A DNA stretch of 64,000 nucleotides from Gavia stellata (taxonomy: Eukaryota > Chordata > Aves > Gaviiformes > Gaviidae), in assembly GCF_030936135.1 (NCBI RefSeq), contig NC_082603.1, forward strand, positions 25,448,880-25,512,879, read 5' to 3'. The position numbers and the translations under genes were made by a program. Below, one piece after another: positions 26,280-55,400 of this stretch. Every line of letters starts with the position of its first letter. The stretch's first letter is position 1. The notes under the pieces were generated by a model. That model searched no databases. It had not been told where the DNA came from and was given only the letters and a program-made list of their open reading frames with translations.

Positions 26280-33141
<6,862 letters not shown>

Positions 33142-33835
33142 CTGATTGGCTGGGAGGTTACAATGCCACACGGCTGATTGGCTGAGAGGTTACAATGCCC
33201 CATGACTGATTGGCTGGGAGGTTACAATGCCACACGGCTGATTGGCTGAGAGGTTACAATGCCCCATGACTGATTGGCTGGGAGGTTACAATGCCACATG
33301 GCTGATTGGCTGAGAGGTTACAATGCCACATGGCTGATTGGCTGGGAGGTTACAATGCCCCATGGCTGATTGGCTGGGAGGTTAAAATGCCACATGGCTG
33401 ATTGGCTGAGAGGTTACAATGCCCCATGGCTGATTGGCTGGGAGGTTACAATGCCCCATGGCTGATTGGCTGGGAGGTTACAATGCCACATGGCTGATTG
33501 GCTGAGAGGTTACAATGCCCCATGGCTGATTGGCTGGGAGGTTACAATGCCACATGGCTGATTGGCTGAGAGGTTACAATGCCCCATGACTGATTGGCTG
33601 GGAGGTTACAATGCCACATGGCTGATTGGCTGAGAGGTTACAATGCCCCATGGCTGATTGGCTGGGAGGTTACAATGCCACATGGCTGATTGGCTGAGAG
33701 GTTACAATGCCCCATGGCTGATTGGCTGGGAGGTTACAATGCCACATGGCTGATTGGCTGGTTGGCTACATCATTGGATGCTAGTTGGCTGTGTGGCCTT
33801 ATTACTGCATGCTGATTGGCTGGGTGGCTGGGGGG
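33142..33835. repeat. 32-bp minisatellite with an NF-Y (CCAAT) site in every unit
   Basis: Units begin at 33,142 and then at exactly every 32 bp to 33,750. This gives 20 unit starts over 608 bp without a single length change. A diverged tail has one further full site at 33,812. Each unit begins with CTGATTGGCTG, whose reverse complement CAGCCAATCAG is the textbook NF-Y consensus. It continues with G(G/A)GAGGTTACAATG and then CC(A/C)CATGG. Units mostly alternate between a GGGAGG/CCACATGG type and a GAGAGG/CCCCATGG type, giving a 64-bp higher-order dimer. The ATTGG core is unchanged in all copies, while other positions vary. It may be a neutral VNTR or an amplified enhancer/promoter element. 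Confidence 0.97.
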
Positions 33836-33837
33836 GG

Positions 33838-33850
33838 ACCCTAATAAAAC
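33838..33850 (+). promoter_or_regulatory. TATA-like element next to the CCAAT array
   Basis: CCCTAATAAAACC directly follows the last CCAAT unit and a G8 run. It could serve as a TATA-like box for rightward transcription starting near 33,870. It is equally a chance AATAAA word. No rightward gene begins here that I can recognise. Confidence 0.2.
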
Positions 33851-39134: not shown

Positions 39135-40838
39135 TTAGTGCTCATTGCCCTCCTTCTGCTTCTTCCCCTCCTGATGGGTCTGGCCGTGTTCTCCATGGTG
39201 GTGGTGAGCATGGGTGGCAGGTTCATGGTCCCCACTTGGGTCTGTGGCTCTCTTGCTGCTGACCTCGTGGTGGTGGTGAGGGTGAAGAGGGTTGTGCTGG
39301 TGGATGGGGGTCTCTGACTCCTTCCCCTCTTGTTCGGAAAGCGGGCTCGGGGTTACAGGGACCTCCATGGTACTGTTAGCCTGCGGAAAGTAACACAAGG
39401 GCTGGTGTGGTATGTGAATGCACACATGGCCCTGCAGTGAGCCTGCGAGCATGCCTGTGAGCTGAGATGAAAGCAGACCAGCATCCGTCATGCAGAAAGC
39501 TGCGTGGGTCAGAGCAAAGGCTCTCCAGCCCCAACCCAGGGCGCCAAGAGGACAGGAGAGACTGGAGCACATAGAGCACAAGCCTCTGTACCTACATCCC
39601 TTGGCTCAGGCTGTCTGTGGTCCAGGGAAGTCCTGAGCCAAGAAAGGGATTTTGCATTCAGTATTTCTAGATGGATTTTTCTCCTGGGAAGTGACTAATC
39701 ACCTGCTGAGCCCGGAGCTACATCCTTTTCTTTGCTCTGAGCTTGGCACCTCTGGGTCCATTGCTGGCCCCCTTCTTATATCAGAACAGCCAGTGACCCT
39801 AGTTAGCTTTTCCAGACCCGGGCTAGGACCCCTTTAGTCAGTTCCTTCTCAGCCTGAAAGCTCTGACCTATTTAACTGCACTTATGCCAGACCTTTCATC
39901 ACCTTCCCTCAACCACGGACGAGGACGACTGCCAACCCAGAGCCTGTCCCCAACGTGAAGATAAGGTTGTTTTTCTCCTGATGTGCAGTGCCAGAGGAGA
40001 GAAGGGAGCCCGGCTCCAGTGAGCACCCCTGCTCCTTACCTCCTGGGTGGTGTTGGGGTAGAGGGAGCAGTTGCCGCAGAAGTCCTTGCTGTGGGTGAAG
40101 CGGATGGCTGACTCCACATAGGGGAAGTGGAGGAAGCTGTAGGGCAGCTGGATGTGGAAAGCCAGGCGGCCGCACCTGCGAGGAGAAGCCATGGCCCGGC
40201 TCGAGGCAGGGGGTCTAGGGTTCCCCTGGCTCAGCCATGGGGGAGCTTGGGGAAGCCCACCAAACGCTCCGTAACCCCCCAGGAAAGCCTCAGCCGAGAT
40301 GGGGAACACTCACCGGTCGTAGACGAGGAAGTCGTCCTTGTCGCCCCCCAGGACCTGCCAGACGTCAGGCTCCTCTGGCTCCGGCTGGAAGACGGGAATG
40401 CCCAGCGGGGCCTGGCGCTCCAGCTCCCCGAACATGGCACGGGAGAGCGGCGCCTTCTCATTGATGATCATGTAGCGGACGTCAACCGTGCCCTGCCGGG
40501 CCAGCCTCTCCCGCAGGCCCCCGAGGCTGTGGGGAAGGAGGCGCTGGGAGGGGGTTGCTGGGGTGGGGTCCACCATGCCAACCCCCACGATGGCGGGGTT
40601 GGGTTTGGGGTAGGGGGAGCAGGGCTCACCTGCGGGCCTGCTGCAGGCAGAAGTGTCAGCTGGCCTTCAGCAGGGCCACCACCGTCACCTGCCCTGCAGC
40701 CCCCGCCATGGGGCTCAAGCCATTGACGCTCCACGCCGGCGCCTCCCGGCAGAGCCGGCTGCTGTTGGACGCCCCCTCAGAGGCCGAGGCCAGCCCCAGC
40801 CCCAGCCAGGCGGCCAGGGCCAGCACCAGCAGCCCCAT
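39135..40838 (-). CDS. SELENOP2: selenoprotein P2 (SelPb), one selenocysteine
   Basis: Secreted selenium-containing protein of the selenoprotein P family, in the SelPb branch kept by fish and birds and lost in placental mammals. Coding exons on the minus strand: 40,838-40,630, 40,526-40,314, 40,175-40,040 and 39,380-39,135. All introns are GT-AG, phases agree, and the sum is 804 nt (267 residues). Residues 1-20 form a signal peptide (MGLLVLALAAWLGLGLASAS). Strand VTVVALLKAS leads to an in-frame TGA at 40,658-40,656 (residue 61), followed by HFC. This is the U-x-x-C redox motif at the N-terminus of the thioredoxin-like domain. LPYSFLHFPYVESAI and FCGNCSL match the family. Residues about 212-260 hold HPHHHH and HAHHHHGEH, the His-rich metal/heparin-binding region. 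Unlike SELENOP1 there is no Sec-rich tail. Possible N-glycosylation sites are NSS, NCS, NTT and NST. Confidence 0.94.
40656..40658 (-). other. SELENOP2: selenocysteine UGA codon
   Basis: TGA (plus-strand TCA) sits in frame inside the first coding exon of SELENOP2. Eight sense codons and a split codon follow before a good donor (CAG|GTGAG). Upstream VTVVALLKAS and downstream HFCLQQA match the conserved sequence around the first Sec of selenoprotein P. Together with the 3'UTR SECIS this supports recoding rather than termination. Confidence 0.92.
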
Positions 40839-41764
40839 CCTGGACCCCCAGCCCTGGCAGGGGGAAACGGGGTGTTAATCCCCCACCGCTGGCTTCTGCC
40901 TCCCCTCTGCCCTGGGGCTCACCCTGATGGAGTCCTCCCAGCCCCACTGCAATCCCAAACTGCCTCCCCACATGCCCCTCTGGGGCAGACGAAGGCTGGT
41001 GGGCAGTATCATACTGGTCCCAGCACGGCACTGGGAGCTGGAACACCTGCGCCAGCAGGGAGAGGAAAGCGGGATGAGGCGGGGGGGTCGGGGTGCCCAG
41101 CTCCCGACGAGCACTGCACCCTTGACGCTGGCTTTCACGGGCACCCACTGCAACAGCCAGGTGCCCCAGTTTCCCCCGGCAGCAGGGCACCCACTTCATG
41201 CATTGGGGAGGTCCTGCTCCGCCTGTGGGCCTTCTCCACCTCCCAACCCCAAAAGCCAGCCCCAGCAGTGGCCAGGGCTCTGTCTTTGCCCCAGGGGTGG
41301 GCAGGGATGCAGCCCCCATCGTCCTGGCCACTGGCAGGGAGTCAGCGGGACAGGGACGGTTTCACCTTCAGGTCACCTTGAGAGTCCTTGATGCCCCACG
41401 AAGCGCTTGAGGGGTGCACAGAGCCTTTAACCCCCCTGGTCCCAATATCTGCCTGAAGCCCCTTCCTCCCAGAGCCCCCTAACCCTGCCCACCCCAAGAT
41501 ACACCCTGTCCCTCCAGGATCCAGCACATTTAAGGGGCAGGACACGGGGCTTGGGGGGACAATTCAGGGAGGTGGGGAGGGAGCAGGGGACTGCGGGGTC
41601 TGGTCGGGATGGATGAACCCCCAATCCCCAGCACCCTCCCCCACGAGAACAAGCCCTCAATACCGCTCTTCTCCTCACTGCTGTCCTCCGGCTTGACCTC
41701 GCTCCCGGCCCCAGCGGTCTGCCCAGCTGGCCCTGGTCTCCCTTTTATCTCCTGTCCACTCTCC
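40839..41764 (-). promoter_or_regulatory. SELENOP2: SELENOP2 5' region with TATA-like promoter
   Basis: Directly upstream of the start codon is a good acceptor, TTTCCCCCTGCCAG, ending at 40,854. The first coding exon therefore probably starts at 40,853, and the true 5' end lies upstream. The best candidate promoter is GATAAAAGGG at 41,749-41,740 (minus), a TATA-like box that would start transcription near 41,715. Several possible donors follow (for example AGCG|GTATTG near 41,665). The exact first exon is uncertain. Confidence 0.4.
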
Positions 41765-50300: not shown

Positions 50301-51889
50301 TGAGCCATCAGCAACCCACAGGCCACAGAGGGCTTTGGAAATGCCCCCCACACCCCAGCACCAGGGCACCTTCCTTGCTGCCTCCTGCAGACGCTTCCCT
50401 CTTGAGTAGTAGCCGAGTCCGGCCCACACCTCGTTCACCTCCTGCTCCAAGAGACATGGTGTGGTGTTAGATGAAGAGACACGAGGGCAGGGAGAGCACC
50501 CAGCCCCAGCGACGCTCACCTCCAGGGACGCCTGCGCCAGAGCCTGCAGTGTTGGCCACTTCTGTGGTACAGAGGGAAAGGGACAAGTCAGGGACAAGCA
50601 AAGCTGTGCTTTGCAGCTGGGGATCTGCCACAGGCAGTGGACAAGGTCTCCAAACGGGGCAGCCTGTGGGCACAGGACTCCGTGAGGAGCAGTCACCTGC
50701 ATCCAGCGGTTGTAGTAGTCGATCACTGTAGCCACCTGTGTCTGCTGGAGCATGATCTCAGACACCCACACTGCAGGGAGCAGGGCAGGGATCAGAGCAG
50801 AGGCATCAACACGACCCACACCTCATGCTGAGGCCACGTTAGCACTGTCTACAAGCACTGCACCAGCATCCAACCCATGGGACCCCCTCACCTTCCCCAC
50901 ATGCTGCCCCACAGGAGCTCCCTTGGGCCCAAAGTGGGCTCTCCGACCCCCCAGCGCCTTGAAAGCAGGGCTCAGCAGCTCTTGTGGCCGCCCCAGGTGG
51001 CTTGGTCCAAGGATGGCGACTGAAGCCACATTTCCTCACAAGGCCATACTGCACATCCGTGTCAGGGGGCAACACACAGCAGAGGACCCCACTCCTGCTC
51101 CTCACCTGCGTACGCCCGTCTGTCGGCATCTGGCTCAGTTGCTGCCTGAAAGGGGAAGAAGATGGAGTGAGAGAAACAGGGTAACACGGGACCCCACCGC
51201 AGAGGGGACCTGCATATAAAATAAAATTGCTTGTGGTGTGTTTTGAACGCTACATAGGAATCTGCAAAAAAAGAAAAAAACAAAAAAAACCAAACCAAAG
51301 CCTTCCCCTAAGCGCTCAGAAGTTCTGAGTTTGGGTAATCAAGGGGCAGCCAAAGCACTTTCTCACTGACGAAGCCGCTACGGCACCCCTGCCTCCCGCT
51401 GCCTCCCGCTGCCTCCCCTTACCAGCGTCCTCCAGGGAAGGTCCCGCTTCCATTTGTCGTACCAAGCCAGCAGGTTGCCACGCAAGGCCTCGATCTCAGC
51501 CGGGTCGCTGAAGAGATGCCGGGCGGGCGGCGGAGCCGGCGCTGGAGCTGGGGCCCCTGCCAGGAGAGCGGCGGGTCAGCGCACGGCGGGGATGAAGAAG
51601 GGCTGCGGGGCCCGACCGCAGCAACACGGGACCGGAGGCGGGAGCCCGGCAGAGCTGCTGCCGGGCGGACGAGCACCGAGCCTTCCGAGGACGCAGTAAG
51701 CACCCGTAGCTGCCCAGGCTGGCGGCCCCGTGCCCCGGAGGGGGCAGCCACCCACCCTCCCCCCCAACCCTCCCGCTACCGGGCACCTCCGCGGGGCGAC
51801 GCGCCCTTCCTGCTCTGTCCCGCAGGCGGGACCGCCCTCCCGCCGCTCCGCCGGAGACCCCTGGCAGCCGCCGCCCGGAGCGGGCTCAT
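47384..51889 (-). CDS. MUTYH: adenine DNA glycosylase (MutY homologue)
   Basis: Base-excision repair enzyme that removes adenine mispaired with 8-oxoguanine. Coding exons (minus): 51889-51787, 51556-51423, 51145-51106, 50770-50697, 50561-50520, 50441-50370, 50164-50051, 49743-49646, 49365-49221, 48954-48879, 48804-48619, 48464-48319, 48093-47941, 47790-47740, 47488-47384. All are GT-AG with consistent phases, 1,539 nt, 512 residues. The Arg/Ala-rich N-terminus ([17 protein letters not shown]) resembles a mitochondrial presequence. Catalytic Glu97 lies in SEIMLQQTQ, the helix-hairpin-helix [13 protein letters not shown] at 174-186, and catalytic Asp199 in VVDGNV. The [4Fe-4S] cysteines are 253, 260, 263 and 269 (C-x6-C-x2-C-x5-C). 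A linker with GCPLCPP leads to the MutT-like 8-oxoG-recognition domain (about 320-461). The C-terminus carries KRKR (481-484) and a PCNA-box-like QLSLRTFL (499-506). Exon 1 rests on an ordinary GAG|GTGCCC donor and is the least certain part. Confidence 0.97.
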
Positions 51890-52440
51890 GGCCGGGCCGG
51901 GCCACTCCCCGGCGGGGCTGGAGCCCGGGGACGGCGCGGCGCCACGTGATACTTTCCCGGGAAAATGTTTCCCTTCCAGCGCCCCGCCCCCCCGTGGGGA
52001 CAAATCAGAGCGGGTGGCCCCGCCCATCTTCCACGCGTGAGCCAATCGGAGCGAGGCGCGGGCTCGTGCCCTCCCGTCCTCAGGCCGCCCGGGGGAGAGG
52101 GCGGGACCTCCCGGCGCGCCTGAGCCAATCAGAGCTTCGGAGGAGAAGATGAGGCTGTCCCCACCCCTTCTCCCGCCGGTCCCAGCGGCCGCACGAGAAG
52201 GACCCCGAATGGGCTGCCCGATCTAAACGCCCGTTTACTTAAAAACCAAATTTCGGTTGAAAACGGGTTTTGGAAAAGCGGAGAAAAAGCCGCTGGCGGC
52301 TGACAGGAGCCGGACCGCCCGCGCGGGCAGGCAGCGCGGGGCACAGGGTCGGGCGGGGCGATCGGCGGAAGCGGGCAGCCGGCGGGCAGCCGCATCGGCG
52401 GAGGCCCCGGGAGCGACGCGGGGCGGCGGCGGGCGCGGCC
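51890..52440. promoter_or_regulatory. bidirectional MUTYH/TOE1 promoter
   Basis: The start codons of MUTYH (51,889, minus) and TOE1 (52,441, plus) are 551 bp apart, in a CpG island reaching from about 51.5 to 52.65 kb. There is no TATA box. Two consensus NF-Y sites, GAGCCAATCGGAG (CCAAT at 52,042) and GAGCCAATCAGAG (CCAAT at 52,135), point rightward and are 93 bp apart. A related ACAAATCAGAG lies at about 52,000. Other words are the E-box CACGTG at 51,943-51,948, the palindrome TTTCCCGGGAAA at about 51,954-51,965 and GC boxes. This matches the head-to-head arrangement known in mammals. Confidence 0.85.
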
Positions 52441-55400
52441 ATGGCGCGGTGGCGGGTGCCGGTGGTGGACGTGCAGAGCGACAACTTCAGGGAGCTGTGG
52501 CCCTCCATGGTGCTGGCGCTGCGCACCGCCACCTTCGTCGCCGTGGACACGGTGAGGCGGGGCGGGGGGCGGCGGCGGTGACCGGCGGCGCGGCCGGGCC
52601 CGCGGGGCCGCTGACGGGTGTCTCCCCGCAGGAGCTGAGCGGCCTTGGCGCCAGGAAGTCGCTGCTGAGCCCGTGAGTGCCCCGGTTGTGCGGGAGGGGG
52701 AGGTCCCTCAGCCGGACTTACCGGCTGCGGGTGCTCCCAGGCGCGTTCCTCCGGTACCCGTTGCTCGGTTCCCTTCCCCCTGCGGGTTTGGCTCCCCGGG
52801 GGTGACCGGGGGGAAGGAGCAGGGCCGCGGCCGAGGGAGGGCGGGGGTGCCAGGGCAGGAGCCGTCACTCCCGTTCTCCTACCGCCCAGGTGCATCGAAG
52901 AGCGGTACAAGGCCGTCTGCAGCGCGGCCAGGACCCGCTCCGTCCTCTCCCTTGGCATCGCGTGTTTCAAGCAGCTCCCAGAGCAGGTACGGGCACGGGC
53001 CGTAGAGCGGCCGTTTGCTCTTGTTCCTGCCTTCTAAGGGGGCAGCGGGCACCGGCACTCCACTGGGAGACGGGACTCAACCCACCCGTGCTCCGTGGAC
53101 TTGGCCCTGGCTTTTTTGGCAGCTCCCTGTGACAGGCATCCCTGTGTTGCTCTCCCTTTGCAGTCCGAGAACGCGTATCTCTGCCAGATCTACAACCTGA
53201 CGCTCCTCTGCATGGAGGATTACATTGTCGAACCCCAGTCGGTGCAGTTCCTGGTGCAGCACGGCTTTGACTTCAACAAGCAGTACTCCCAGGGGATTCC
53301 TTACCACAAGGGCAACGACAAGGTACAAAACGACCGTCCTTTGGACACCTCACCTTGCTCTGCTCCAGGCTTCTGGGGAGGTTGCTGGCTTCCCCCAGTC
53401 CCGGCGTCTCCCTCACACAGCTGCCGAGTGAAGATGGGCTCACACTGCGGTCTTGAGTGCAGCATTATCCCTTTCACCTCCCCGCTGGTTTATATCCAGG
53501 CTGTCACTTGTTGCAGTTGCTTTTCCTAATATTTAGGCCTCTGTTTGGTCAAAGCAAGTCACAGCTGTAGGCAGTACCCTGCTACAGCAGGCTCCGATAA
53601 CTTCCCGGGGTGATGGCAAGTCAAGGTGCTAAGGTTTGTTGACTAATTCCTCTTCTTGCAGGGCAATGAGAACGAGAACCAGAGCCAGAGCGTTCGGACT
53701 TTTTTCCTGGAGCTCATACGAGCAAAGAAGCCTCTCATTCTCCATAACGGCTTGATCGATCTGGTCTTCCTGTACCAGTGCTTCTACGCTCACCTCCCAG
53801 ACAACCTCGGCACCTTCACCGCTGACCTCTCGGAAATGTTCCCAGCAGGAATATACGACACGAAATATGCTTCAGAGTTTGAGACTCGCTTTGTAGCATC
53901 CTACCTGGAGTATGCTTACAAGAAGTGGTGAGCGGCGCTCTGTATTTAAAACTTACGGGAGGAAAGGCAAAGGGCCTATCAGTGTTTGGTTTGTTTTTCT
54001 AGGCAAGGGGGTTGGCTTTTTGTATTACCCCAACGAGTGAAGAAAGGTGCTTTTTAGGTGACTCTGCCCCGTGCTCTTCCTATTTTTAGGACAGGTGCTG
54101 AGTGCGTAAGGGTGCATTTTGTAATACACCTTATCTGTTCAGTGGGCAGCTGCTGAAAGAGGATTTCAGTCTTGCGCTGGCAGCAGTTTTGACCACAGAG
54201 TGACCTGATCTAACTGAAAACTAATTGATTCGCTGCATGGCCCTGGTCCAGCAGCGCCCTAGGGCCGTGGCAGGAGCACACATAGAGAGAGACCCTTAAA
54301 ACTCAGCTAAAGAGCAAGGGAAAACAGGGCTGTGCCTGCAGGCTCTGATAGTTATAACTTGGTTTTGTGAGGGATGGTGCAGTTAAAGGGTGGATGCTCC
54401 CTGCACCTCCTGATGCTGACCAGCTCTGTCACGTGTCCTGCACGTGACACTCGCCTGCGGCCAGCTACGACTCTCATCACTTTTCCTTCCAAGCGAAGGT
54501 CGTGCTCTTGTTCCAGGGCCTCCTGTCTGGCTTCCTGCCCCTAGCTCTTTGTGGATATCTTCCAGGCAGACACATGTTAGAAGCAGAGATGTCTGTCCAC
54601 TTCACGTGTCAGTCTGGCCCCTGGTTCCGCACTTCCCACACAATCTAAACAAGCCCCTGGCAGTGATACAGCCCCTTAAGTCTCCATTAAACTGCAGTCA
54701 CACTCTGTGCAGAGGAAAAGTGGTATTTTTAGTGACTGTTTTATATCAGGAAATGCCATTTTGACAGGTCTGAAAACATTCAAGATGGCTGTTCTCAAAC
54801 ATGAGAATGCTTTGTTTTGACAAGATAAAAATACTTTCTGAACTGACCTCTTAAATGTTTTAACCCACAATTCTAGTTACACGGAACCTTCCAAAGGTTT
54901 TGGGCCTTTTAGCTAGCTCTTGGGACAAAACAGTTCTTTTCTCATGAGGTGGAAAATGTTTCCTTGTTGTCTACATTGCCCAGGTTCGACCTGTCAGTGT
55001 GGTGGCTGCTGGATACTCTGTGCAATACCTCATTTTAGGACATTTCCTCTTTGTCCATTAATATTATTAGGACTAACACATATCTTAGTGCCCTTAGTAT
55101 TTAAGGCTAAGCTATGTGTCCCCTTCTCCCATAGCTTCACCGGAGACACTGTTGTCCCTGCCTGTATGTCAGCATAAGAGAAACCAACCTTTAAATCAGC
55201 ACAGAAGGAACTGCTTACTAAAGCTATTTCTACCAGGACTGAGTTTCTCCCCAGCAGGCTGTCGAGTTGCCTGGAGCTCGAGAGCAGGAAACTAGTGGAG
55301 TTGAGACTTGGGGAGAGCAGCATGTTTGCACCAGCTCCACACTGTGGTACCTTCAGTGGGTTAACCGCAGTAACTGTGTACTCGTTTGTTCCAGCAAGCG

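Follow-up and report, generated by a model that had tools for sequence, protein, structure and literature searches.

A minisatellite with 21 direct CCAAT boxes at a single locus of the Gavia stellata genome and its possible binding by NF-Y

The human ABO gene has an upstream minisatellite enhancer, built of 43-bp units, which was reportedly linked to CBF/NF-Y by Kominato in 1997. The minisatellite lies about 4 kb upstream of the start codon and contains CBF/NF-Y motifs; alleles carry one or four units, and the four-repeat form is described as more active in luciferase reporters (PMC2988417). NF-Y also binds direct CCAAT arrays in the LTR12/ERV9 family, whose U3 regions contain 5-17 copies of a repeat about 41 nt long (PMC11853044), with CCAAT boxes spaced by 24 or 41 bp (PMC4982600). 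At human c-Fos/NF-Y promoters, pairs of CCAAT boxes stand as direct repeats in the same relative orientation with a spacing peak at 31 bp; adjacent NF-Y trimers need a minimum of 24 bp, and each bound NF-Y introduces a bend of about 80 degrees, with two kinks 31 bp apart pointing the same way (PMC4982600). Moreover, NF-Y maintains the nucleosome-depleted region of promoters (PMC6624317). A large homotypic cluster has been described for another factor: the MORC3-repressed tandem-repeat enhancer of IFNB1 has 45 PU.1 motifs in 192-bp units, with near-identical core units and further, diverged ones (PMC13373173). Finally, a 32-bp VNTR that is a presumptive enhancer is located between IL10RB and IFNAR1 (PMC3762855).

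We have analysed a CCAAT array in a stretch of 64 kb from the genome of Gavia stellata (the window; Table 1). The motif TGATTGGCT occurs 22 times in the window, and 21 of these occurrences lie within the array, where they span 33143 to 33821; the 22nd, on the minus strand at 52123, is outside it. In dinucleotide shuffles of the window we found a mean of 0.99 and a maximum of 5. All 21 sites in the array are co-oriented, with CCAAT on the minus strand. The original prediction had described 20 units at an exact 32-bp step and a further site 62 bp on. The step is indeed exactly 32 bp for 20 sites, from 33143 to 33751, and the 21st follows at 33813; the 62-bp gap consists of two diverged 31-bp units, so that the step drops from 32 to 31 bp at the 3' edge. 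Tandem Repeats Finder reported a repeat at 33137-33761 with a period of 32, 19.5 copies, 92% matches and 0% indels. A perfect core had likewise been attributed to every unit; 21 sites are intact, but in the unit at 33782, one of 22 and situated at the 3' edge, the core has decayed to TAGTTGGCT. Decayed cores and a variable step had been named beforehand as signs against a functional array, there with regard to orthologous arrays only. The strength of the sites was well judged, with 21 strong NF-Y consensus sites in the array and 3 in the remainder of the 64 kb.

Table 1. Features of the window and CCAAT arrays elsewhere in the genome (positions without a contig name refer to the window)
Feature	Position	Strand	Remarks
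Window	C10:25448880-25512879		1.32-Gb genome of 1185 contigs
ZSWIM5-like gene, first coding exon	26730..27407	-	neighbour gene; exon end judged by eye; about 5.7 kb from the array
CpG-richer patch	32864..33237		over the array start; GC 0.59, CpG o/e 0.70
19 near-identical 32-bp units	33137..33744	+	TGATTGGCT in every unit (minus strand: AGCCAATCA)
Boundary unit	33745..33781	+	begins like an array unit and has its core intact at 33751, but the spacer after it is diverged; next unit 31 bp on
Diverged 31-bp unit	33782..33812	+	decayed core TAGTTGGCT
Last diverged unit	33813..33844	+	intact core TGATTGGCT at 33813
TAATAAAA	33842..33849	+	TATA-box- or poly(A)-signal-like; in single-copy flank
Selenoprotein P2-like gene	39135..40840	-	neighbour gene on the array's other side
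HPDL-like gene	44.67-45.86 kb		PDB match to 4-hydroxyphenylpyruvate dioxygenase relatives; Pfam glyoxalase
MUTYH-like gene	in window		match to adenine DNA glycosylase
TOE1-like gene	in window		CAF1 domain (Pfam)
CCAAT array	C30:1716701-1717400		19 co-oriented CCAAT boxes; steps of 32 or 24 bp in 12 of 18 cases; diverged spacers
CCAAT array	C22:2932501-2933400		19 co-oriented GATTGG/CATTGG boxes; steps of 30 or 44 bp in 11 of 18 cases; GC-rich, CpG o/e 0.63
CCAAT array	C36		6 boxes
CCAAT case	C20		3 boxes in a CpG-rich stretch
CCAAT array	C1167:26796-28907		41 ATTGG in one orientation; 2.1 kb

Minisatellites are by definition head-to-tail repeats whose unit measures from 7 to several hundred bp (PMC8096271). 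With 19.5 head-to-tail copies of a period-32 unit at one locus, the intergenic array of about 0.7 kb is a single-locus minisatellite by the structural tests that we ran. To set it apart from a neutral minisatellite, as was done originally, is therefore a false contrast. A coding repeat is ruled out, since 32 is not divisible by 3 and each of the six frames contains 7-15 stops; the open reading frames at the two edges of the array gave no Pfam families.

The ABO minisatellite is the closest parallel. Both are minisatellites with an NF-Y motif in their units, and in the array every unit carries the CCAAT consensus save the one decayed edge unit of 22. ABO has at most four units (PMC2988417), compared with 21 boxes at 32 bp here, and its function has been shown, while any function of the array is putative. 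The initial statement that nothing similar is known outside LTRs had overlooked ABO (PMC2988417) and, for another factor, the IFNB1 enhancer (PMC13373173). With the latter the array shares near-identical core units beside diverged ones in a large homotypic cluster; the factor, the number of motifs and the unit length are different. The likeness to paired-box promoters that had been pointed out is borne out: 32 bp on the same strand adjoins the 31-bp peak of direct repeats at c-Fos/NF-Y promoters (PMC4982600), although those are box pairs at a promoter and not a long array. LTR12 repeats are dispersed with their LTRs and also carry GATA and MZF1 sites; our array is single copy, with a 32-bp step. 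The IL10RB-IFNAR1 VNTR has the same unit length, but the main text of its paper refers neither to NF-Y nor to CCAAT (PMC3762855). Among the matches listed in our literature search, which covered subscription papers only to a small part, no title or abstract opening described a CCAAT array in a bird. On the whole, the best reading appears to be a minisatellite that NF-Y can bind, similar to that of human ABO but longer.

The units give some insight into how the array has grown. The regular units tend to alternate between G and A in column 17 and between A and C in column 32, resulting in a 64-bp dimer. Identity along the unit order was 0.974 at lag 2 and 0.925 at lag 1, values that were reached by 0.00025 and 0.0001 of the unit-order shuffles, respectively, and the longest exact duplications within the array measure up to 127 bp. 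Such a dimer order is ordinary minisatellite growth. Using an ungapped comparison without anchoring, the best unit match in the tail after 33771 was found at 33782 (P 0.015 against shuffles). The array may have started from a stretch of loosely repeated CCAAT units of about 31 bp, of which the 3' edge would still preserve a remnant; blocks of 32 and 64 bp would then have been duplicated to give the 19 nearly identical copies. With growth of this kind, the 19 "perfect sites" cannot be counted as independent observations.

This also bears on the question of whether the CCAAT core is under selection. It had been stated that the core is kept while other positions vary. None of the 19 regular units shows a change in the 9-bp core, but only six of the 32 columns vary at all (3, 4, 5, 17, 25 and 32) and 26 are invariant. 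If six variable columns are placed at random, a clean core is obtained with P 0.11; three of the 32 nine-base windows in the regular unit are clean. Scoring substitutions inside versus outside the core, as had been proposed, revealed no significant conservation in the regular array (Fisher, 0.15). With so few variable columns, a clean core does not speak for selection. Among the three older units at the edge, 25 of 27 core cells match as against 33 of 69 spacer cells, which may indicate that the core is better retained; we count this as a hint only, since the alignment was built around the core and the three windows that follow reach the same score as the core window. In a wraparound alignment the ATTGG window ranked first of 30 in conservation at the C22 array and fourth at the window's array (of 32), at C30 (of 32) and at C36 (of 34). 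Furthermore, WWCAAWG, which we take to be a SOX-like motif, also recurs 18 times in the array, showing that any motif in a homogeneous unit gets repeated.

Three TGATTGGCT at 29-35-bp steps are found nowhere else in the genome (18 overlapping matches, all at the array). A search for three GATTGG at 30-34-bp steps gave 75 matches at 22 loci, and 18 of these matches come from the array of the window; about 0.8 would be expected with a base composition that was assumed rather than measured. The sequence was read at five of the 21 other loci, and the arrays on C30, C22 and C36 and the case on C20 (Table 1) belong to this set. At 24-28 and 35-39 bp we obtained 42 and 56 matches; manual grouping, with a single representative per locus, reduced these to 9 and 15 loci. 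A relaxed GATTGG survey yielded 501 forward and 647 reverse matches, which among the matches listed are largely satellites and G-rich repeats. The control with the pattern read backwards was far above the real counts (8855/7582 for the relaxed survey; 6659/5746, 6788/5651 and 7235/6072 at 30-34, 24-28 and 35-39 bp, respectively). GATTGG backwards is GGTTAG, the telomere repeat, and for this reason the control was set aside. Being unfair for this motif, it leaves the comparison between steps as the only usable result of the GATTGG surveys.

For this comparison, spacers were counted as diverged and not G-rich if the first two were less than 65% identical and the G fraction was below 0.5, which applied to 9 of 22 loci at 30-34 bp, 3 of 9 at 24-28 bp and 1 of 15 at 35-39 bp. 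Replacing the G limit by GATTGG[CT] at the first site, a criterion picked post hoc after the data had been seen, changed these small numbers to 9 of 22, 0 of 9 and 1 of 15. Diverged-spacer triples hence occur mainly at 30-34 bp, which fits the 31-bp preference in human (PMC4982600), given that the numbers are small and partly post hoc.

The window's array is not the largest CCAAT array in this genome, as the one on contig C1167, to which the search at 35-39 bp had pointed, has 41 boxes. In the 2.2-kb stretch that was read first, 40 ATTGG stand beside 38 GGCGGGA, which we read as an E2F- or GC-box-like motif; 28 of 39 steps measure 39 bp, and CpG o/e is 0.94 (0.58 to 1.22 in 250-bp windows). 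The unit is confined to this locus (34 matches with up to 2 mismatches in the genome search). Over 30 complete 39-bp units we counted mismatches in 1 of 180 positions of GATTGG, 3 of 210 of GGCGGGA and 99 of 780 of the rest, where the GATTGG figure is biased because units were chosen by GAT[N]GG and the GGCGGGA figure is not. An exon of a long-wave opsin is located about 1.9 kb before the array (PDB: long-wave-sensitive opsin 1, E 5.2e-45). Judged from these units, C1167 appears to make a better case for constraint than the window's array.

The spacing of 32 bp exceeds the 24-bp minimum between trimers, so occupancy of all 21 sites would be possible (PMC4982600). Originally, all NF-Y was placed on one face of the DNA. 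At 10.5 bp per turn each step rotates by 17 degrees, which adds up to 326 degrees across 19 steps; neighbours alone share a face, and the array as a whole does not. If filled with NF-Y, it would be expected to take the shape of a slow superhelix. A full NF-Y consensus at about three helical turns makes it probable that several sites can be occupied at once, and NF-Y would then bend the DNA at each site and exclude nucleosomes. The likeliest effect would be an open, weakly to moderately active segment of enhancer or promoter type, about 5.7 kb from the ZSWIM5-like start, with the copy number setting its strength.

Binding in cells, open chromatin and an effect on a gene are what we infer from these features, and we put the probability that the array is a minisatellite bound by NF-Y in some tissue at roughly 0.5. 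This is favoured because the spacing fits both the sterics and the preference of NF-Y (PMC4982600) and because other arrays of the genome, on C1167 and C22, keep their sites while the spacers vary. That minisatellites with NF-Y sites can be enhancers, as in ABO (PMC2988417), makes such a role plausible here. A neutral minisatellite, whose unit contains the consensus by chance and which grew by slippage or unequal exchange with no regulatory effect even if NF-Y sometimes binds, comes close to even odds. The near-identity of the columns, the 64-bp dimer structure and the core test without significance all agree with it, as do the many other GATTGG minisatellites and satellites of the genome among the matches listed. 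The NF-Y 10-mer consensus is met in a random 32-bp stretch of the window with a frequency of 0.0013, and human minisatellite loci number more than a million (PMC8096271), so that minisatellites with NF-Y sites by chance must exist. On the other hand, the array lies in the spacing class preferred by NF-Y, diverged-spacer triples concentrate there, and the older edge units, in a core-based alignment, keep the core over the spacer. An effect on a gene seems less likely than binding as such, and up to the binding step the two readings overlap. As our best functional guess, an open NF-Y-bound segment with copy-number-dependent activity would be about equally likely as a neutral minisatellite with occasional binding.

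The NF-Y cluster could also be a repressed enhancer, recruiting a silencer (of the MORC3 type, or TNRC18/HDAC as reported for LTR12) and becoming active once the silencer is lost. Human repeats with large SPI, AP-1 or SP/KLF clusters lose accessibility via MORC3, but NF-Y, NFY and CCAAT go unmentioned in that paper (PMC13373173), and we regard this explanation as unlikely. The paper also reports that, of roughly 1000 human clusters with over 15 PU.1 motifs, only some 50 are accessible and bound in the cells studied, and that MORC3-restricted tandem repeats have no general gene-regulatory activity; both lower our confidence in binding by NF-Y (PMC13373173). A solo LTR with a tandem-repeat U3 enhancer in the style of ERV9/LTR12 would explain why CCAAT repeats stand immediately upstream of TAATAAAA, and U3 repeats are known from LTR12 (PMC11853044). 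However, a genome match search that ignores very common words found that the array, a 391-bp piece at its upstream edge and a 501-bp piece downstream match only themselves in 1.32 Gb; as TAATAAAA lies in a single-copy flank, it does not point to an LTR. With up to 3 mismatches allowed, the 23-bp unit core is present 19 times in the array and 3 times as strays elsewhere in the genome. The repeat unit, as expected, gave no matches in viral or prokaryote contigs. No target-site duplication of 5-6 bp was found around TG...CA (13 TG and 50 CA positions); five of four bases compare with about 2.5 expected (13 x 50 / 256). We consider an LTR origin contradicted by the single-copy flanks and the absent 5-6-bp duplications, leaving a solo LTR a very small probability.

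Returning to a minisatellite bound by NF-Y, a broader proposal can be made, which we hold to be doubtful. Birds might possess a class of long CCAAT arrays (19 to 41 direct boxes, one coupled to GGCGGGA) that grew as minisatellites and are retained for the binding of NF-Y, with a spacing of about three to four helical turns. At the window's array, the histone-fold dimer and the bend of about 80 degrees at each site could wrap the 0.7 kb as a continuous nucleosome-free superhelix, and copy number would then tune an enhancer or, alternatively, one that is repressed and poised.

Concerning the surroundings, the exon towards the start of the window is presumably exon 1 of ZSWIM5 and the gene on the array's other side a selenoprotein P2-like gene; Pfam finds no family for the exon, nor in the three pieces of the latter gene that were searched. 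The names HPDL and TOE1 are likewise our assumption from the matches in Table 1. With respect to a promoter, the array lies about 5.7 kb from the ZSWIM5-like start, and the adjoining CpG-richer patch is of moderate strength. The patch is a weak sign, because 16 others were called in the window (17 in total, 12 of the 16 others being shorter than 600 bp).

Taken together, the observation is true and the origin ordinary, and a function is plausible but unproven. If occupied by NF-Y, the array would be a natural test case for homotypic clusters, with 21 equal sites whose spacing is almost uniform and which belong to no transposon, and the same genome offers arrays with mixed 24/32, mixed 30/44 and 39-bp steps for comparison. 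It could then be tested how important helical phasing is for NF-Y, in what way an enhancer becomes silenced through the size of its cluster and whether minisatellite expansion builds regulatory elements. The interest lies in this set of long CCAAT arrays in one genome, on which the effects of NF-Y spacing and cluster size could be tested directly.

CCAAT boxes were also noticed in other settings. Strong NF-Y consensus sites at 52040 and 52123, with CCAAT on the plus strand, lie in a CpG island at 51303-53189, which is probably the shared promoter of the MUTYH-like and TOE1-like genes between which it is situated. Among the matches listed, a 41-bp satellite near a contig end (C4:4758-115437) has GATTGG in successive units, with many matches, and is probably a CCAAT array of a structural kind. 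At C3:1212608-1442263, a repeated 26-bp unit that groups three CCAAT boxes is found 19 times, at distances of about 5-21 kb and in either orientation; this may be a gene cluster that arose by duplication and whose promoter has three boxes.
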